A stretch of 33,767 bases of DNA, taken from Granulosicoccus sp. GTDB lineage: Bacteria > Pseudomonadota > Gammaproteobacteria > Granulosicoccales > Granulosicoccaceae. The translations under genes and the position numbers were made by a program. Shown in pieces: positions 2,225-9,247 of the stretch; the first letter of the stretch is position 1, and every line of letters starts with the position of its first letter. Where the stretch lies: positions 1 through 33,767 of the forward strand of contig JALZWO010000239.1 of NCBI GenBank assembly GCA_023300375.1. Reading direction: 5' to 3'. The notes beneath the pieces were generated by a model. It had not been told where the DNA came from. It did no database searches and saw only the letters and a list, made by a program, of their open reading frames with translations.

Positions 2225-2261
2225 TCCAAGGCAGTAGCAGGTTCGAAATAATAGTAAAAAT

Positions 2262-2265
2262 GGAG
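2262..2265 (+). promoter_or_regulatory. Ribosome binding site that decides the sps start
   Basis: GGAG ends six bases before the ATG at 2272. An in-frame ATG at 2260 overlaps this site and has no purine-rich sequence before it, so 2272 is preferred as the start of sucrose-phosphate synthase. Confidence 0.6.
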
Positions 2266-2271
2266 CAATAC

Positions 2272-4476
2272 ATGTCCGATACCCCTTTGCATATCTGTCT
2301 TATCAGCGTTCATGGCTTGATTCGTTCCGACGACTTAGAGCTAGGGTGTGATGCGGACACAGGGGGGCAAGTGCTCTACGTGGTTGAATTGGCAAGGGCA
2401 CTGGCGGCTGAGGCGGCCGTTGGACGTGTTGATCTGGTGACTCGCCAAGTTAGTAGTCACGCTCATAGCAATGATTATTCGCAACTCAGTGAAAAACTCG
2501 CTGATAACGCCAATATTATTCGAATTGAAGCTGGTGGCGATGCTTATCTGCCCAAAGAACAGTTGTGGGAGCATTTAGATAGTTTCGTCGATAATCTGAA
2601 ATTTTATTACGCTGAACAAGGTGTATCGCCGGATGTTATTCATTCGCATTATGCAGACGCTGGTTACGTGGGTAGTCGCCTGTCGTATTTGCTGGACGTG
2701 CCGTTGGTGCATACCGGCCACTCCCTAGGCCGAGTTAAGCGTCGTCGCTTATTCGCCAGTGGAGTCGACAAAGAGACTATTGAAAAGAGTTACAACATGA
2801 GTCGTCGTCTTGCCGCTGAGGAGCAAACGCTCGCTAGTGCGGCTCGGGTTATTACCAGTACACATCAAGAAATCGAGGAACAATACGAACTCTATGACTT
2901 CTATCGTCCGGATGCTATGAGAGTCATTCCACCGGGCACTAATTTGGCAAGATTTCAACCGCCACTTGGGGATGAGGCTGATTCAGACATGGCGATGGCT
3001 TTACAGCGATTTTTGCGCGATCCTGAAAAACCGATGATTCTTGCCCTGTCGCGTGCAGATGCGCGCAAGAATATCGCAACACTTGTGCATGCGTATGGTC
3101 AAGATACTGCCTTGCAAGACCGGGCCAACTTAGTGATTGTGATGGGTAATCGCGAAGAGATCGCCCAGCTGGATGATGGTGCCAGAAAAGTGTTTACAGA
3201 ATTACTCACACTTATAGACACCTACGATCTGTACGGTAAAGTGGCGTATCCCAAGCATCATGGTTCGAATGATGTGCCAGTGCTTTATCGCCTGTGCACC
3301 CTATCGAAAGGTGTATTTGTAAACCCCGCTTTAACAGAGCCTTTTGGCTTGACGCTGATTGAAGCTGCCGCTAGTGGGTTGCCCATTATTGCCACTGAAG
3401 ATGGCGGCCCCGTGGATATCATTGGCAACTGTAAAAATGGTTTGTTGATAGACCCGCTTGATGCGAAGGCGATGGCTGAAGCTGTGCATGCTGTTATTGG
3501 CAATTGGGAGTCTTGGCAGCAAAAATCAGTGGCTGGATTAAAAGGTGTGCGGGAGCACTATGCGTGGGACGCACATGCAAAAAGCTACTTGCAAATGTTG
3601 TCAGGCATCGTAGAGGCCAAAGAGGGGCCCAGGGTACCGGCGGCGGGTCAGGATTTTACGGCCAGCAAAATTGATCGCGTGTTGTTTACAGACTTGAATA
3701 GAAGTTTGATTGGTGATGAAGCCGCATTGCAGAAGCTCATTAGCCTAGTGCGTTCTAACCGACGACGCATGAAATTCGGTATCAACACAGGATTGCGATT
3801 TGATGCAGCTTTACGGCTGCTAAAGCAACATCGAATTCCCGAGCCCGACTTTCTTATCACAAGCACTGGCACGCAGGTGAATTTTGCACCCAAGCTCACC
3901 GACGATACGGCATGGACTCTACAAATTGAGAAGCAATGGACGCCCAAGCAAGTTAAGCGGGTAATGCGTGAGATTCCAGGTGTTAGTTTGCGAGACGCCG
4001 AGCAACAAAGTCCGTTTAAAATCAGCTATCTGTACGATGGGCAGCTTGCGCCATCTCTGGCGGAAATCAGCGCTCGTCTCTATCAAGAGGCACAGGCGGT
4101 TAATGTCATCTTCTCGCACGGAAAATTTCTGAATGTTGTGCCTATTCGCGCATCAAAAGGTTTGGCGATGCGCTACGTAGTTGAGCAGTTTGGAATTCCT
4201 CTCGAACGCACACTCGCCATTGGTGGCTCAGGTGCTGATGAAGACATGATGCGCGGCAACATGCTGGCAGCCATTGTGGGTAATCGTAGCCATGAGGAAC
4301 TCTCTGGAGTTTCAGAGAACAATACGATATACGTGACAAGGAAGAGTTTTGCCGCTGGTATCCTCGAGGCCATGGAGCATTACGATTTCCTTGGTGCTTG
4401 TGTTGCACCGGCCACTGAACAAGCCGATGACAGTGGTGCACAAACAGCTGATACTACAACGGAGCCTGTTGAATGA
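2272..4476 (+). CDS. sps: Sucrose-phosphate synthase with degenerate C-terminal phosphatase-like domain
   Basis: A 734-residue, two-domain protein. The GT-B glycosyltransferase part (about residues 5-450) opens with DADTGGQ, the sugar-acceptor loop of sucrose synthesising enzymes. It also has GHSLGR, LSRADARKN and the donor-site block EPFGLTLIEA with the two conserved glutamates (about 356 and 364). It should make sucrose 6-phosphate from UDP- or ADP-glucose and fructose 6-phosphate in the cytoplasm. The C-terminal part (from about 465) is a HAD-IIB domain whose first motif reads DLNRS instead of the active DxDxT, and whose last motif reads GGSGADED, so the phosphatase is probably inactive, as in plant and cyanobacterial two-domain SPS. 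The separate phosphatase gene overlaps its end by four bases. Sucrose is a known compatible solute in salt-adapted bacteria. Confidence 0.9.
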   Translation: MSDTPLHICLISVHGLIRSDDLELGCDADTGGQVLYVVELARALAAEAAVGRVDLVTRQVSSHAHSNDYSQLSEKLADNANIIRIEAGGDAYLPKEQLWEHLDSFVDNLKFYYAEQGVSPDVIHSHYADAGYVGSRLSYLLDVPLVHTGHSLGRVKRRRLFASGVDKETIEKSYNMSRRLAAEEQTLASAARVITSTHQEIEEQYELYDFYRPDAMRVIPPGTNLARFQPPLGDEADSDMAMALQRFLRDPEKPMILALSRADARKNIATLVHAYGQDTALQDRANLVIVMGNREEIAQLDDGARKVFTELLTLIDTYDLYGKVAYPKHHGSNDVPVLYRLCTLSKGVFVNPALTEPFGLTLIEAAASGLPIIATEDGGPVDIIGNCKNGLLIDPLDAKAMAEAVHAVIGNWESWQQKSVAGLKGVREHYAWDAHAKSYLQMLSGIVEAKEGPRVPAAGQDFTASKIDRVLFTDLNRSLIGDEAALQKLISLVRSNRRRMKFGINTGLRFDAALRLLKQHRIPEPDFLITSTGTQVNFAPKLTDDTAWTLQIEKQWTPKQVKRVMREIPGVSLRDAEQQSPFKISYLYDGQLAPSLAEISARLYQEAQAVNVIFSHGKFLNVVPIRASKGLAMRYVVEQFGIPLERTLAIGGSGADEDMMRGNMLAAIVGNRSHEELSGVSENNTIYVTRKSFAAGILEAMEHYDFLGACVAPATEQADDSGAQTADTTTEPVE

Positions 4477-5348
4477 AACTGGTCTGTTCTGACCTAGACA
4501 GAACCCTGCTACCCAACGGAGACCAGCCTGAATCGCCTCATGCTAGAGCGATTCTCTGGCATTTGTTGATCACTCACGAGCTTGCCATTGCTTATGTCTC
4601 AGGGCGCAATCTTGATCTTGTGCTCAGGGCCATTGAAGATTACGACCTCGCAGTGCCTGTTGCTATCGCGGCTGATGTGGGTACTAGCATCTACTGGAGG
4701 ACAAAAGACACTTGGCAATTTGATGTCAGTTGGCAAGGCCTGATTGGTCTGGACTGGAACGGGTGCGATAGTGAACACATACAGCGATTACTCGAATCTG
4801 TAACGTCGCTGAGTAGTCAAAGTGCGGATAGGCAGTCTCGGTACAAGTGCAGTTTTTTCTACGTCCACGGTATGGATGAAGTGCAGATCGAGCAAGAAGT
4901 CCAACAGCGATTAACAGGCGATGGCATCAAGGCATCTCTGTTATTCAGTCATGATCCGTTAACCGATCAAGGCTTGCTGGATGTTGTGCCACAATCTGCG
5001 ACCAAACGTGAAGCTGTGGCGTACATGGCTACACAGTCGAAGCTCCATCTAAACGATGTGCTTTTTGCCGGCGATAGTGGCAATGATGTGACAGCTTTAG
5101 TGGCTGACCATCCAGGCGTTTTAGTAGCCAATGCTGATGACGCTACGAGAGCTGCGGTGCTAAAACGTAAAGACGAGATGGCAAATGCTGCCCATATCTA
5201 TTTTGCTGGTGGCAACCTTGAGGTTGCAGGGCATGAGAGCCTAAATGGTAATTACTCATCGGGTATTATCGAAGCTCTTTTGCACTATCAGCCAAGCTTG
5301 CGAGCCTGTTTAAATGACTTGAACTGGCTTCGTGCTGCGTTGAAGTGA
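4473..5348 (+). CDS. spp: Sucrose-6-phosphate phosphatase (HAD-IIB)
   Basis: A 291-residue HAD hydrolase with all four catalytic motifs intact: DLDRT with nucleophile Asp7 and acid/base Asp9, the SGR motif around Ser43, Lys178 in TKRE, and GDSGND at 200-205 for magnesium binding. It would remove phosphate from sucrose 6-phosphate made by the upstream enzyme. The ATG overlaps the stop of the synthase gene (ATGA), so the two are translationally coupled. The contrast between its complete active site and the degenerate domain of its neighbour explains why both are kept. No fructokinase, sucrase or transporter gene lies beside it. Confidence 0.88.
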   Translation: MKLVCSDLDRTLLPNGDQPESPHARAILWHLLITHELAIAYVSGRNLDLVLRAIEDYDLAVPVAIAADVGTSIYWRTKDTWQFDVSWQGLIGLDWNGCDSEHIQRLLESVTSLSSQSADRQSRYKCSFFYVHGMDEVQIEQEVQQRLTGDGIKASLLFSHDPLTDQGLLDVVPQSATKREAVAYMATQSKLHLNDVLFAGDSGNDVTALVADHPGVLVANADDATRAAVLKRKDEMANAAHIYFAGGNLEVAGHESLNGNYSSGIIEALLHYQPSLRACLNDLNWLRAALK

Positions 5349-5406: not shown

Positions 5407-6756
5407 ATGTCCTCGCGTAATTATCCGACGGTATCACTTCACCTACTCGACCAGCTCGATGACGCTCAGCGTGCCCAGCTGTTGAGTCGCTCAGAAGATG
5501 ATCTGACATCGTTTCTTGATGGTGTTAAGCCCATCATCAAGGCTGTGAAAGAGGAGGGCGATTTGGCGCTTGCTCGTTTTGCTCAGCAATATGACGGTGC
5601 AATTTCCTTGCAATCTGACGAAATTGCCGCCACTCGGCAAGAGATAGACAAGGCTTTTGATCAGATCGACAAAGCGATGATCGAAACGCTGGAATATTCA
5701 GCAGATAATATTCGCCGTTTTCATGAGGCTCAGCGCCCTCCCGAGATGTGGATGAAAGAAATCCGTCCAGGCGTGCTGGTGGGGGAGCGTGCAACGGCCA
5801 TTGACTCGGTGGCCTGTTATTCACCACGAGGTAAGGGTGTGTTCCCGTCTGTCACGCTAATGACAGCAATACCTGCAGTGGTTGCTGGGGTGCCAGAGCC
5901 CATTATCCTGACGCCTCCTGGTGCTGACGGTAAAGTTGACCCGGCCACACTGGTGGCAGCTAGATTGGCTGGGGTCGAGCAGGTTTACAAGGCCGGTGGA
6001 GCGCAGGCCGTCGCCGCTGCCGCTTTCGGCACAGCCACTGTACCGCGCTGTTTCAAAATCGTGGGCCCGGGTAGTTCATGGGTAGTCGCTGCTAAACGAG
6101 AGCTTATCGGATTGATAGATCCGGGATTGGTAGCAGGGCCTACCGAAACTATTATTCTTGCCGACGAGACGGCCAACCCGTTAATTGCAGCGCTGGATAT
6201 GACGATCGAATCAGAGCATGGCAACGATAGCAGTGCATTTTTGGTGACATGGGATGCCGATCTGGCTCGAGCGGTTGTTAATGCTATTCCCGATTACTGG
6301 GACCAGCAGAGCGAGACGTTGGCGGGTTACTCATCAACCGTGCTTAGCGGCAAGCGAGGAGGTGTCGTTTTAGCGAGCTCCCCAGAAGCTGCGTATGCCT
6401 TCATTAACGATTATGCTCCCGAGCACTGCCAGGTATTGTCGAAACACCCGTACGAGCATCTGGCGTACATTCGCAATGCCAGCGAAATTCTTCTGGGTGA
6501 ACACGCCGCTGGATCTATCGCCAATTACATGATGGGTCCAAATTGTGTGTTGCCAACATCGGGCGCTGCCCGTACCCAATCTCCACTGGGCGTACATGAT
6601 TTTATGAAAACCTGTTCGGTGGGGCATATGACAGCCAATGGCTATAAGGAAATGGCACCGCACACGCATCGCTTTGCCAGTTACGAAGGCTTTGACGGAC
6701 ACGCTAATGCTGTCTCTGAGCTGCGCGATGAAGCTATGCGTAGTAACGACTATTAA
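5407..6756 (+). CDS. Divergent histidinol-dehydrogenase family protein, probably not histidine biosynthesis
   Basis: A 449-residue protein aligned end to end with HisD from memory of the E. coli sequence. Conserved are the catalytic pair in APEH (Glu339, His340), the GPG/AKR nucleotide-binding region (220-231), His271 in SEHG and His432 near the C-terminus. Two of the four zinc-ligand positions differ: E. coli Gln259 corresponds to Glu268 and Asp360 to Asn373. The glycine-rich loop reads YSPRGKG where HisD has YxPGG. The HisD family also contains sulfopropanediol 3-dehydrogenase (HpsN), so a different alcohol substrate is likely. No other his gene is present. The dsrC-like gene starts three bases after its stop, so it heads a sulfur-relay operon. 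A TATACT at 5366-5371 may be its -10 box, with no good -35 box. Confidence 0.82.
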   Translation: MSSRNYPTVSLHLLDQLDDAQRAQLLSRSEDDLTSFLDGVKPIIKAVKEEGDLALARFAQQYDGAISLQSDEIAATRQEIDKAFDQIDKAMIETLEYSADNIRRFHEAQRPPEMWMKEIRPGVLVGERATAIDSVACYSPRGKGVFPSVTLMTAIPAVVAGVPEPIILTPPGADGKVDPATLVAARLAGVEQVYKAGGAQAVAAAAFGTATVPRCFKIVGPGSSWVVAAKRELIGLIDPGLVAGPTETIILADETANPLIAALDMTIESEHGNDSSAFLVTWDADLARAVVNAIPDYWDQQSETLAGYSSTVLSGKRGGVVLASSPEAAYAFINDYAPEHCQVLSKHPYEHLAYIRNASEILLGEHAAGSIANYMMGPNCVLPTSGAARTQSPLGVHDFMKTCSVGHMTANGYKEMAPHTHRFASYEGFDGHANAVSELRDEAMRSNDY

Positions 6757-6759
6757 AAA

Positions 6760-7086
6760 ATGACGACATTACTAGGCACTGTAGAAACTGATCACGAAGG
6801 CTATTTAATGAGCCGTTCCTCTTGGTCAAGAGAGTTGGCTATTGATATGGCTGCCACCGATGACATAACACTGTCGGATGCTCACTGGGAGGTTATAGAA
6901 TTTTTGCAGGAGTACTACGACAACTATGAAATTGCGCCTGCGATTCGTATTTTGACCAAACAGATCGGCAAACGATTCGGGCAAGAAAAGGGTAACAGTA
7001 AGTATTTATACGAGCTTTTCCCCAAAGGCCCTGCAAAACAAGCGTGCCGCTACGCTGGATTACCTAAGCCTACAGGCTGTGTTTGA
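6760..7086 (+). CDS. dsrC: DsrC-type sulfur carrier / thiol relay protein
   Basis: A 108-residue protein closely matching DsrC, including LTKxIGKxxG, GNSKYLYxLFPxGPAKQA and the flexible C-terminal arm with both redox cysteines, Cys96 and Cys107, eleven positions apart as in genuine DsrC. TusE-type proteins keep only the last of these, so this copy can form the intramolecular disulfide or trisulfide typical of dissimilatory DsrC. In known systems DsrC carries sulfur between DsrAB and the DsrMKJOP membrane complex. Here it lies three bases after the HisD-like gene, and its last codons overlap the GTG start of the DsrM-like gene by eight bases. No clear Shine-Dalgarno precedes its ATG, in keeping with coupled translation. 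Its partner enzyme here is not DsrAB as far as the window shows. Confidence 0.93.
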   Translation: MTTLLGTVETDHEGYLMSRSSWSRELAIDMAATDDITLSDAHWEVIEFLQEYYDNYEIAPAIRILTKQIGKRFGQEKGNSKYLYELFPKGPAKQACRYAGLPKPTGCV

Positions 7087-7756
7087 TTTAGCCCTAGCGC
7101 TATCTTATTCTCTAGCATTGGTGTGGCTTGTGGGTGGCTGCGCATATCGCGTGGGCATCTGGCTTAAAGCACGTAATAGTTTACCCATACCGCTAACGCC
7201 AGCACCGCGCACGCGTTCAGGTGTGGTGATGCGCTTGTGCCTTGAGTTGTTCGCTTTTCGCTCGTTGGCACGCGCAGATAAAACAACTTGGTTAGCCAGC
7301 TTGTTATTTCACTATGGTCTATTGTGGCTGGCGATCGTTCATTTGCGATTTGTGTTTACGTCCCTGCCCACGTTTTTGATACCGTTTATTCAATACAGTG
7401 GTTGGGCCACACTGTGCGTCATTGTTGGTTTGTCGGTTTTGTTGCTGCGTCGTTTGCTGGTCGATAGAGTGCGTTATGTCTCGGCTCCTAGCGACTACTT
7501 GCACCTTATGCTGCTGATATCGATTGCTGTTTCTGGCGCGCTTCTTAAGCGTGTGTGGCCAGTGAATTTGTTCGAGGTGGGTGAGTTTTTGCGTGGTGTA
7601 TTCAGGGTCTCCTGGGTGCCATTGCCCGATCATGCTGGTTTGGTGGTTCACTTGTTGTTAGTCCTCGTGTTGTTGTTGGTATTTCCAATCAGCAAACTCT
7701 TGCATGGTGTTGGGGTCATTGTTAGCCCCACGTTTAATCAACGAGACCGAGGCTGA
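7079..7756 (+). CDS. DsrM/NarI-like cytochrome b membrane subunit
   Basis: A 225-residue membrane protein starting at a GTG that overlaps the end of dsrC. It has about five hydrophobic segments (roughly 5-28, 72-93, 105-127, 138-155 and 186-208). Histidines lie inside or at the ends of these helices: His78, His88, His142, His191 and His209. That pattern fits the two-haem b NarI/DsrM/TmcC family, which exchanges electrons between the quinone pool and a cytoplasmic iron-sulfur subunit. The next gene encodes such a subunit three bases on. An unusual point is the short length against typical DsrM proteins. Haem ligation is inferred from spacing only. Confidence 0.8.
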   Translation: MFDLALALSYSLALVWLVGGCAYRVGIWLKARNSLPIPLTPAPRTRSGVVMRLCLELFAFRSLARADKTTWLASLLFHYGLLWLAIVHLRFVFTSLPTFLIPFIQYSGWATLCVIVGLSVLLLRRLLVDRVRYVSAPSDYLHLMLLISIAVSGALLKRVWPVNLFEVGEFLRGVFRVSWVPLPDHAGLVVHLLLVLVLLLVFPISKLLHGVGVIVSPTFNQRDRG

Positions 7757-7759
7757 GCT

Positions 7760-9247
7760 ATGAAAGAGTCTTCTGTACCTGCCGCCCAAGTGGTAGGGCG
7801 CTACCGCGTTATTCCTATTATCCAAGAACAGGCCATGGCCAATATCAGCACGGCTAAGGCTACGCCTGCGATACAACATGAGGTGGGTTTGCCGGGCGCT
7901 CTAGTCGCTGATTGGCACGACAAGGCTATCAGTCGTTTAGGTACGCTACTGAAAGAGCGACGTGGTTTACAGGTGTTTATGGACAGCTGCACCAAATGTG
8001 GTGCTTGCACCGACAAATGTCATTACTTTCTAGGTACGGGTGATCCTTTAAACATGCCGGTAGCAAGGCAGGATTTGCTTCGCTCGGTTTATCGGCGTCA
8101 CTTTACCTTTGCTGGCAAGTGGTTTCCCAAATTGGTTGGCGCACGTGAACTGGATAAACCCATGCTGGAGGACTGGTATCGCTATTTTCACCAGTGTTCC
8201 GAATGTCGGCGGTGTACCGTATTTTGCCCCAAAGGAATAGACACCAGCGAAGTGACGATGGCTGGCAGAGATATTCTTGCCAGCATTGGTATTGGACAAC
8301 AGTACTCGCAGGAAATCATTGCTAAGGTGAACCGTGTGGGCAACAACTTGGGTATGAAAAAGCCAGCGTTGATTGATGTACTGGACAATCTGGCTGAAGA
8401 TATCAGTGACGACACCGGGCTTGCAATACGTATTCCTTTAGATGATGCGAGCGCTGATATGTTGATCGTGACGCCATCAGCCGATTTTTTCGCAGAGCCT
8501 CATGTTGATGGATTAATCGGCATGATTAAGGTTCTTCATGTTGCAGGCATTCGCTACACCTTTAGTTCTCAAGCCTCAGAGGCCGCTAACTTTGCCCTGT
8601 TCACAGGTCAACGCGATCAAATGCAAGGCATAGCACAGCGTATCAGCACTGCAGCACAGGCATTGGGTGTTAGTCGTATCGTTATGGGCGAGTGTGGTCA
8701 TGCTTGGCGAGTTGCCTATAGTTTTATGGATACTCTGGTTGGTGGCTTTGACTACCTTGATCCCGAACATCCTAGGCCTGAACACATTTGTGAATTGACT
8801 TACGAGCTATTGAAGGCTGGGCGCATTCAGCTTGATCCCACGCGCAACGATGGCAAGGTAGTCACATTCCATGATTCTTGTAATGTGGCACGTGGCTCTG
8901 GAATGGGCGGTATTAGACGTGGACAATTCATTGTTCCGCGTGCGTTGCTCAAAGCAAGTGTTCCTGAAATAATTGAGATGAGCAGCGATGCCACGATGCA
9001 GAAAACATTTTGCTGTGGTGGTGGCGGTGGCTTGCTAACAGATGATCTGATGGAGCTTCGAATTAAAGGGGCTTTGCCACGTGCGCAAGCGTTGCAAGCT
9101 GTTGTTGATTCACACGGAGTTACGCATCTGGTCGCTATCTGCGCTATCTGCAAAACACAATTGTCACAGGTTTTACCTCACCATAATCTGGGTGATGTTC
9201 AAGTAACCAGTCTGCATGAGCTGGTGGGTAATGCAATTATTTTATGA
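7760..9247 (+). CDS. DsrK/HdrD-like iron-sulfur protein
   Basis: A 495-residue cytoplasmic protein. It has two [4Fe-4S] motifs: Cys77/80/83/87 in CTKCGACTDKC and Cys146/149/152/156 in CSECRRCTVFCP. These are followed by a CCG domain formed by Cys374 (HDSC), Cys418-Cys419 (FCCGGGGG) and Cys461/464 (CAIC). A first CCG-like half is degenerate, keeping only a GECGHAWR segment around Cys312. This order matches DsrK and HdrD, whose CCG-bound cluster reduces disulfides; in sulfate reducers DsrK acts on DsrC. With the DsrM-like gene just upstream and dsrC before that, it should form a two-subunit membrane module trading electrons between quinone and the DsrC disulfide. Its stop overlaps the start of the peptidase gene (ATGA). 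Confidence 0.88.
   Translation: MKESSVPAAQVVGRYRVIPIIQEQAMANISTAKATPAIQHEVGLPGALVADWHDKAISRLGTLLKERRGLQVFMDSCTKCGACTDKCHYFLGTGDPLNMPVARQDLLRSVYRRHFTFAGKWFPKLVGARELDKPMLEDWYRYFHQCSECRRCTVFCPKGIDTSEVTMAGRDILASIGIGQQYSQEIIAKVNRVGNNLGMKKPALIDVLDNLAEDISDDTGLAIRIPLDDASADMLIVTPSADFFAEPHVDGLIGMIKVLHVAGIRYTFSSQASEAANFALFTGQRDQMQGIAQRISTAAQALGVSRIVMGECGHAWRVAYSFMDTLVGGFDYLDPEHPRPEHICELTYELLKAGRIQLDPTRNDGKVVTFHDSCNVARGSGMGGIRRGQFIVPRALLKASVPEIIEMSSDATMQKTFCCGGGGGLLTDDLMELRIKGALPRAQALQAVVDSHGVTHLVAICAICKTQLSQVLPHHNLGDVQVTSLHELVGNAIIL

Follow-up and report, generated by a model that had tools for sequence, protein, structure and literature searches.

A Glu/Asn metal-site variant of the HisD family as the probable histidinol dehydrogenase of Granulosicoccus

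Introduction

HisD is usually treated as a single enzyme whose metal site is invariant. The excerpted text of PMC11382572 describes the zinc of both HisD and HpsN (the R-DHPS 3-dehydrogenase) as octahedral, held by two His, by Asp in an equatorial and by Gln in an axial position. For HpsN, the same excerpts report that the equivalents of the catalytic Glu–His pair matter, as shown by mutation, that changing Asp352 to Ala abolishes activity, that His126 recognises the sulfonate, that the substrate carboxylate contacts the carbonyl oxygen of His359, and that the HpsN of C. pinatubonensis is inactive on histidinol.

Here we describe a family member from Granulosicoccus sp. in which Glu and Asn stand at the positions of the Gln and Asp ligands (hereafter E/N type). 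It is encoded within a stretch of 33,767 nucleotides (the window; contig JALZWO010000239.1 of assembly GCA_023300375.1), and we consider it very probable that the gene encodes the organism's NAD-dependent L-histidinol dehydrogenase, as a member of an E/N variant clade with a rebuilt metal site.

Results and discussion

The window protein and its active site

The open reading frame runs from an ATG to a TAA, encodes 449 amino acids (Table 1) and is a full-length PF00815/TIGR00069 member (416.2 bits against a curated cut-off of 243.8), a result that does not discriminate within the family because HpsN and the KFPM paralogues described below also score above the cut-off. NCBIfam models were rejected as group separators, as they do not tell HisD, HpsN, KFPM and E/N members apart. 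Alignment with E. coli HisD from NC_000913 (about 33% identical) places Glu268 at the position of Gln259, Asn373 at that of Asp360 and Cys380 at that of His367; the ligands His262 and His419 are kept as His271 and His432, the catalytic pair Glu326/His327 is kept as Glu339/His340, and the loop YIPGGSA reads YSPRGKG. A sequence-only reading of the window had proposed these two ligand changes, the Cys at the His367 position, the altered loop and the retained catalytic pair, and the alignment confirms them all. Across a 16-member clade alignment Y138, P140, R141, G142, K143 and G144 are invariant, and the His367 position is occupied within the E/N clade by Cys, Ala or Asn.

Table 1. Positions of the E/N gene and its active-site codons in the window, and of type B E/N clusters in their own loci.
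Feature	Position	Strand	Basis
E/N-type histidinol dehydrogenase gene, proposed hisD of the genome, 449 aa	5407..6756	+	profile, alignment, trees
Codons 138-144, loop YSPRGKG	5818..5838	+	sequence, alignment
Codons 268-271, Glu-Ser-Glu-His: Glu268 aligned with ligand Gln259, His271 with His262	6208..6219	+	sequence, alignment
Codons 339-340, Glu339-His340, at the HisD catalytic pair Glu326-His327	6421..6426	+	alignment
Codon 373, Asn aligned with the E. coli ligand Asp360	6523..6525	+	sequence, alignment
Codon 380, Cys aligned with E. coli His367	6544..6546	+	sequence, alignment
Codon 432, His aligned with the E. coli ligand His419 (from the partner subunit in HisD)	6700..6702	+	sequence, alignment
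Type B E/N cluster, L303	4400-7526		
Type B E/N cluster, L304	5084-9280		
Type B E/N cluster, L040	2249-9317		

An Asn at the Asp360 position is not obviously tolerated, because the Asp352-to-Ala variant of HpsN is inactive according to the excerpts of PMC11382572. By our own count HpsN His359 is the E. coli His367 position and, since the contact described in those excerpts is made through its carbonyl oxygen, a Cys or Ala at this position need not be harmful.

The best solved relatives of the window protein are HisDs (255 bits, against 202 for 8wwe and 183 for 8v35). Its AlphaFold model (monomer, pLDDT 90.8) finds HisDs with bound ligand as the best solved fold matches (Z 50.7 for 5vld, and 50.2) and gives Z 48.0 with 1kae and 47.1 with HpsN 9cp9, fold matches being unable to separate HisD from HpsN function. 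With HisD (E. coli 1kae, M. truncatula 5vld) the protein shares the fold, the two His ligands, the catalytic Glu–His and the proposed reaction, but it has Glu and Asn for the Gln and Asp ligands, a PRGKG loop and a separate clade. With HpsN (8v35, 9cp9, 8wwe) it shares the fold and the catalytic Glu–His, but lacks His126 and the GRY[AS]H motif (Phe146 lies in PRGKGVF), has both ligands changed and belongs to another clade, so that an earlier impression that the loop does not match HpsN is borne out; that the window gene is itself HpsN was rejected by motif and trees. The HisDs examined carry Leu or Tyr at the HpsN His126 position, and the Phe146 of the window protein would fit an imidazole rather than a sulfonate substrate.

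The E/N signature marks a clade

Among the family rows collected, 89 carry Glu and Asn, 146 carry Gln and Asp, and none is mixed (88 and 143 sequences, respectively, distinct in their last 200 residues, four reference rows having been entered twice; six further rows in which one or both positions were unreadable were left out). The ligand pair is therefore not a product of chance or sequencing error, and its fixation suggests one coupled event in which a carboxylate and an amide would have traded places with the charge of the metal site kept. A scan of 84,980 species genomes returned 73 loci spanning Granulosicoccus and its relatives, Rhizobiales, SAR116, other Alphaproteobacteria and two Bacillota, and the signature is present in all but a few (the exceptions being L078, L082 and broken or partial loci). 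Even sampling put the gene in 12 of 199 Pseudomonadota genomes, counting that of the window, and in 3 of 61 Bacillota genomes. In a Brucella oryzae record (L077, 8115-9283) the E/N gene is split over several frames with stops; assembly errors are likely here, because hisG of the same assembly also contains in-frame stops.

Two trees, thinned by similarity (122 of 167 candidates in the first, 89 of 221 in the second), both recover the E/N rows as one group with SH-aLRT 100 (56 rows in the 122-row tree, 38 of 38 in the 89-row tree). The group lies outside ordinary HisD, for which 41 of 42 rows group at SH-aLRT 97, and apart from HpsN and its relatives, which group at SH-aLRT 100. The subgroup with the window protein receives 100/100 in the careful tree, the bootstrap of which is not fully settled, and the placement of E. 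coli HisD, a long branch, is unsure. The E/N stem is long (1.27 changes per column) and has no intermediates, so the order of the two ligand changes cannot be read from the tree. The sequence-only reading had raised the possibility of a third group beyond HisD and HpsN, to be checked by a family tree; signature and trees both support it, the E/N clade falling outside ordinary HisD as well as HpsN. No paper on an E/N-type HisD was found by title or abstract among open-licence PMC papers.

The group that we label KFPM (L003 1456-2784, L009 and about 40 relatives) belongs to the same family and has the loop YVP[AG]GK[FY]PMVASAH and no HpsN His126; unlike the window protein, its members keep the Gln/Asp ligands and group with HpsN. 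Three single family members fit no named group (L227 3937-5232, L292 3936-5225 and L264 2-1093, with loops GRYPILSAPV, GSYPIVASAN and GRYPLLSAPI, respectively); L227 and L292 group with HpsN in the tree.

Histidine genes of the host and surroundings of the window gene

The host assembly (4.58 Mb in 247 contigs, 97.51% complete) contains three PF00815 genes, namely the window gene, an HpsN on contig C206 and an HpsN-related gene on contig C99. The C206 gene is identified as HpsN by 739 bits to the solved R-DHPS dehydrogenase 8wwe and by its GRYSH motif and, by our reading, adjoins SDR and TRAP-like transporter genes. The C99 protein, a KFPM member, is nearest HpsN (391 bits to 8v35), with KFPMV replacing the HpsN motif; by our reading, its gene adjoins ABC transporter, SnoaL-like and SDR genes. 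As neither is an ordinary HisD, no ordinary hisD was found in this 97.51% complete assembly. HisG, HisB, HisH, HisA, HisF and HisI are present by comparison with E. coli, the first two and HisI above curated cut-offs as well; there is one HisG, one HisB and one HisC above cut-off.

In the sister genera an ordinary hisD lies beside aroG in 11 of 11 genomes, as a hisG-aroG-hisD row in ten of them, the stretch of the eleventh coming to an end. All seven Granulosicoccus genomes examined have murA-hisG-aroG, with only about 400 bases past aroG seen in six; in the window genome the next open reading frame after aroG (223 amino acids, no NCBIfam match) is not hisD, and the contig then ends.

The window gene itself is not beside his genes. 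A DsrC-like gene starts 3 bases downstream, the first of a set (window 6760-9247) whose next two products, by Pfam, are a membrane subunit resembling NarI and an iron-sulfur protein carrying Fer4 and CCG domains; we read the last as DsrK-like and the cassette as of sulfur-relay type. A DsrC-like neighbour occurs at seven E/N loci, none of them alphaproteobacterial, and a role as a non-histidine oxidoreductase of a DsrC/DsrK-like cassette was set aside on that ground. Upstream (window 2260-5348) lie a glycosyltransferase resembling sucrose-phosphate synthase, which itself carries an S6PP phosphatase domain, and then a separate S6PP protein. A tie to sucrose-phosphate metabolism was also set aside, these being neighbours in only part of the Granulosicoccus loci.

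E/N genes and ordinary hisD are complementary in the order

Thirty genomes of the order (at least 90% complete, all of one family; two, G025 and G056, with more than 5% contamination) divide into 19 with the E/N type and 11 with ordinary HisD, none having both and none neither. The E/N carriers make up two genera and the ordinary HisD carriers three others, and the split is one or a few evolutionary events rather than 30 independent ones. Within this table, five full-length matches that were not fetched (G005:C10, G054:C9, G055:C120, C204, C27) score 429-453 bits, against 537-570 for ordinary HisD, and three fragments and one 20-bit match were left unclassed (G002:C8, G053:C342, G064:C200, G012:C60); the fragment L265 of G002 is HpsN by BLAST. 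The E/N gene of G005 is a 100-amino-acid piece at a contig end. In the genus Granulosicoccus an E/N match is present in 25 of 27 genomes (22 checked by motif; G015, G017 and G022 by profile range only), and none was found in two less complete ones, G018 (88%) and G020 (87%).

Of the 73 loci, 26, chosen for lineage spread, were followed to the genome level. No ordinary HisD was found in 19 of these 26 genomes (of unstated completeness, and some of them small), among which are SAR116, Ahrensia and a Rhizobiaceae MAG that has a contig of 4.45 Mb. Ten proteobacterial genomes among them were tested for other his genes, with hisB in all ten and hisG in eight (such checks took in 21 of 53 genomes overall). 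Two E/N genes make up the whole family complement of G133 (100% complete). In the f39 lineage, E/N is the sole family member found in five g72 genomes, and the family genes fetched from five of six genomes of its sister g85 are all ordinary. This second case of clean replacement is suggestive only, because hisB in g72 is represented only by a very divergent HAD-IGPD-IGPD fusion and no IGPD match was found in G159. The fusion (L300 10971-12911, L327 1432-3474, L328 1426-3465) combines one HAD phosphatase with two divergent IGPD domains (by Pfam for L300); it lies beside a hisC-like gene in L327 and L328 and, in G166 and G198, no more than about 10 kb from the E/N gene.

An E/N gene in a his operon of Bacillota

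In one Bacillota genome (G071) the E/N gene forms part of a his operon, hisZ-hisG-hisH-hisA/hisF-hisIE-[E/N]-hisB, with overlaps or gaps of less than 20 bases and with hisA/hisF as one open frame. HisZ and HisIE pass curated models; the last gene has HisB as its best name, yet falls below every curated HisB cut-off. The E/N protein is about 45% identical to the window protein, and the genome's second family member is of Gln/Asp type and groups with HpsN. The operon shows that an E/N site is compatible with a HisD role, and it is the distribution data that carry the claim to the window gene. Three further genomes (G049, a Dethiobacter MAG, G050 and G122; like G071, of unstated completeness) each yielded a single family member, of E/N type, and a single hisB, with the E/N gene on the 5′ side of hisB and a HAD phosphatase gene after it (by reading in all three, by Pfam in G049).

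The predicted HisB proteins of the Bacillota E/N genomes (L071 9327-9974, L291 8198-8830 and L234 2848-3474) are divergent, at 117-131 bits to PF00475 compared with 210-229 in 19 other genomes, and HisB and the E/N HisD look as if they had changed together.

E/N copies alongside ordinary HisD

The remaining seven of the 26 genomes followed from E/N loci have ordinary HisD as well, as do all five f43 genomes with an E/N gene; because of this, the E/N members there do something extra. At two of the five f43 loci, whose neighbours were read (L303, L304), and at L040, where a large Granulosicoccus genome has its second E/N copy, the gene (type B) lies with ABC transporter, SDR and GntR/UTRA regulator genes, the L303 regulator passing the HutC model (276 bits, cut-off 220). 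L030 and L301, the latter from G133, have only ABC transporter genes beside the E/N gene. Our guess is that these clusters serve to take up and metabolise histidinol or a related imidazole alcohol.

Alternative explanations

Such catabolic-looking type B copies (L303, L304, L040, L301) lend some weight to the view taken in the sequence-only reading, that the window gene is a neofunctionalised paralogue which differs in metal or substrate and oxidises some other alcohol or diol, histidine being made through a different gene, as does the fact that its two ligand positions and loop differ from all 143 Gln/Asp relatives. We nonetheless consider it improbable, as ordinary HisD is absent from 19 of 19 E/N genomes of the order, an E/N member lies inside the G071 his operon, and HutC-type control would itself point to imidazole compounds. 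A substrate other than histidinol is thus unsupported, because no other hisD was found and a clade member sits in a his operon; the lack of any other hisD, which that reading had itself set against its proposal, holds as far as a 97.5% complete assembly shows, with HpsN-type genes uncounted.

Should another family member supply the activity, the candidate would be the KFPM paralogue on C99, in which every HisD metal ligand and the catalytic pair are conserved, leaving the window gene to do something else. This is very unlikely, however, since KFPM genes also accompany ordinary HisD in 9 of its 11 genomes and are missing from G006 and G016, which are of E/N type without ordinary HisD, and since one tree joins KFPM to HpsN at SH-aLRT 90 and the other places it, together with two odd members, inside a group at 97-100. 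HpsN and KFPM, being on both sides of the split and KFPM being missing in G006 and G016, do not explain it. Least credible of all is an ordinary hisD hidden in an assembly gap, a notion that the 247 contigs and incomplete state of the host assembly would permit. Against it, G001 (a single 7.78 Mb contig) and G007 (20 contigs, 100% complete), both with all members classed, yielded no ordinary hisD, and the full-length matches across the 27 genomes of the genus all score at most 461 bits, against 537-570 for ordinary HisD of the sister genera (partial matches in G009 and G011 being unclassed).

Proposed role and mechanism

Under the preferred reading, the E/N gene would have replaced the ordinary hisD that sister genera keep after hisG-aroG, and its product would carry out the two-step NAD-dependent oxidation of histidinol to histidine. 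The data establish the signature and its fixation, the clade, the lack of an ordinary hisD, the complementary distribution and the place of a relative in a his operon, and from there we infer histidinol as the substrate, as well as the ligand geometry and the metal. The protein would be a dimer with the HisD fold, its metal held by Glu268, His271 and Asn373 together with His432 of the partner chain. The carboxylate would thus have shifted from an equatorial ligand (Asp360) to the axial one (Glu268, at the Gln259 position) and the amide in the opposite direction (Asn373), leaving the net charge at the metal unchanged. Hydride would be passed to NAD twice, with Glu339 and His340 handling protons and water as in HisD, and Arg141, Lys143 and Phe146 would lie in the substrate loop.

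Implications for the HisD family

The Granulosicoccus E/N gene is probably a working hisD with a rebuilt metal site. More tentatively, and with rather more doubt than confidence, we suggest that it belongs to a third, horizontally spread HisD branch with a Glu/Asn site, in which a coupled, charge-preserving swap, probably with a shifted metal preference, may have displaced ordinary HisD several times, its Bacillota branch travelling with an equally divergent hisB. A paired ligand swap in an enzyme that seems to have assumed an essential step in separate lineages offers a natural test of metal-site remodelling with function kept. TIGR00069 and PF00815 lump HisD, HpsN, KFPM and E/N proteins together, so that a hisD label assigned automatically in a marine bacterium such as Granulosicoccus obscures which gene is responsible for histidine synthesis.
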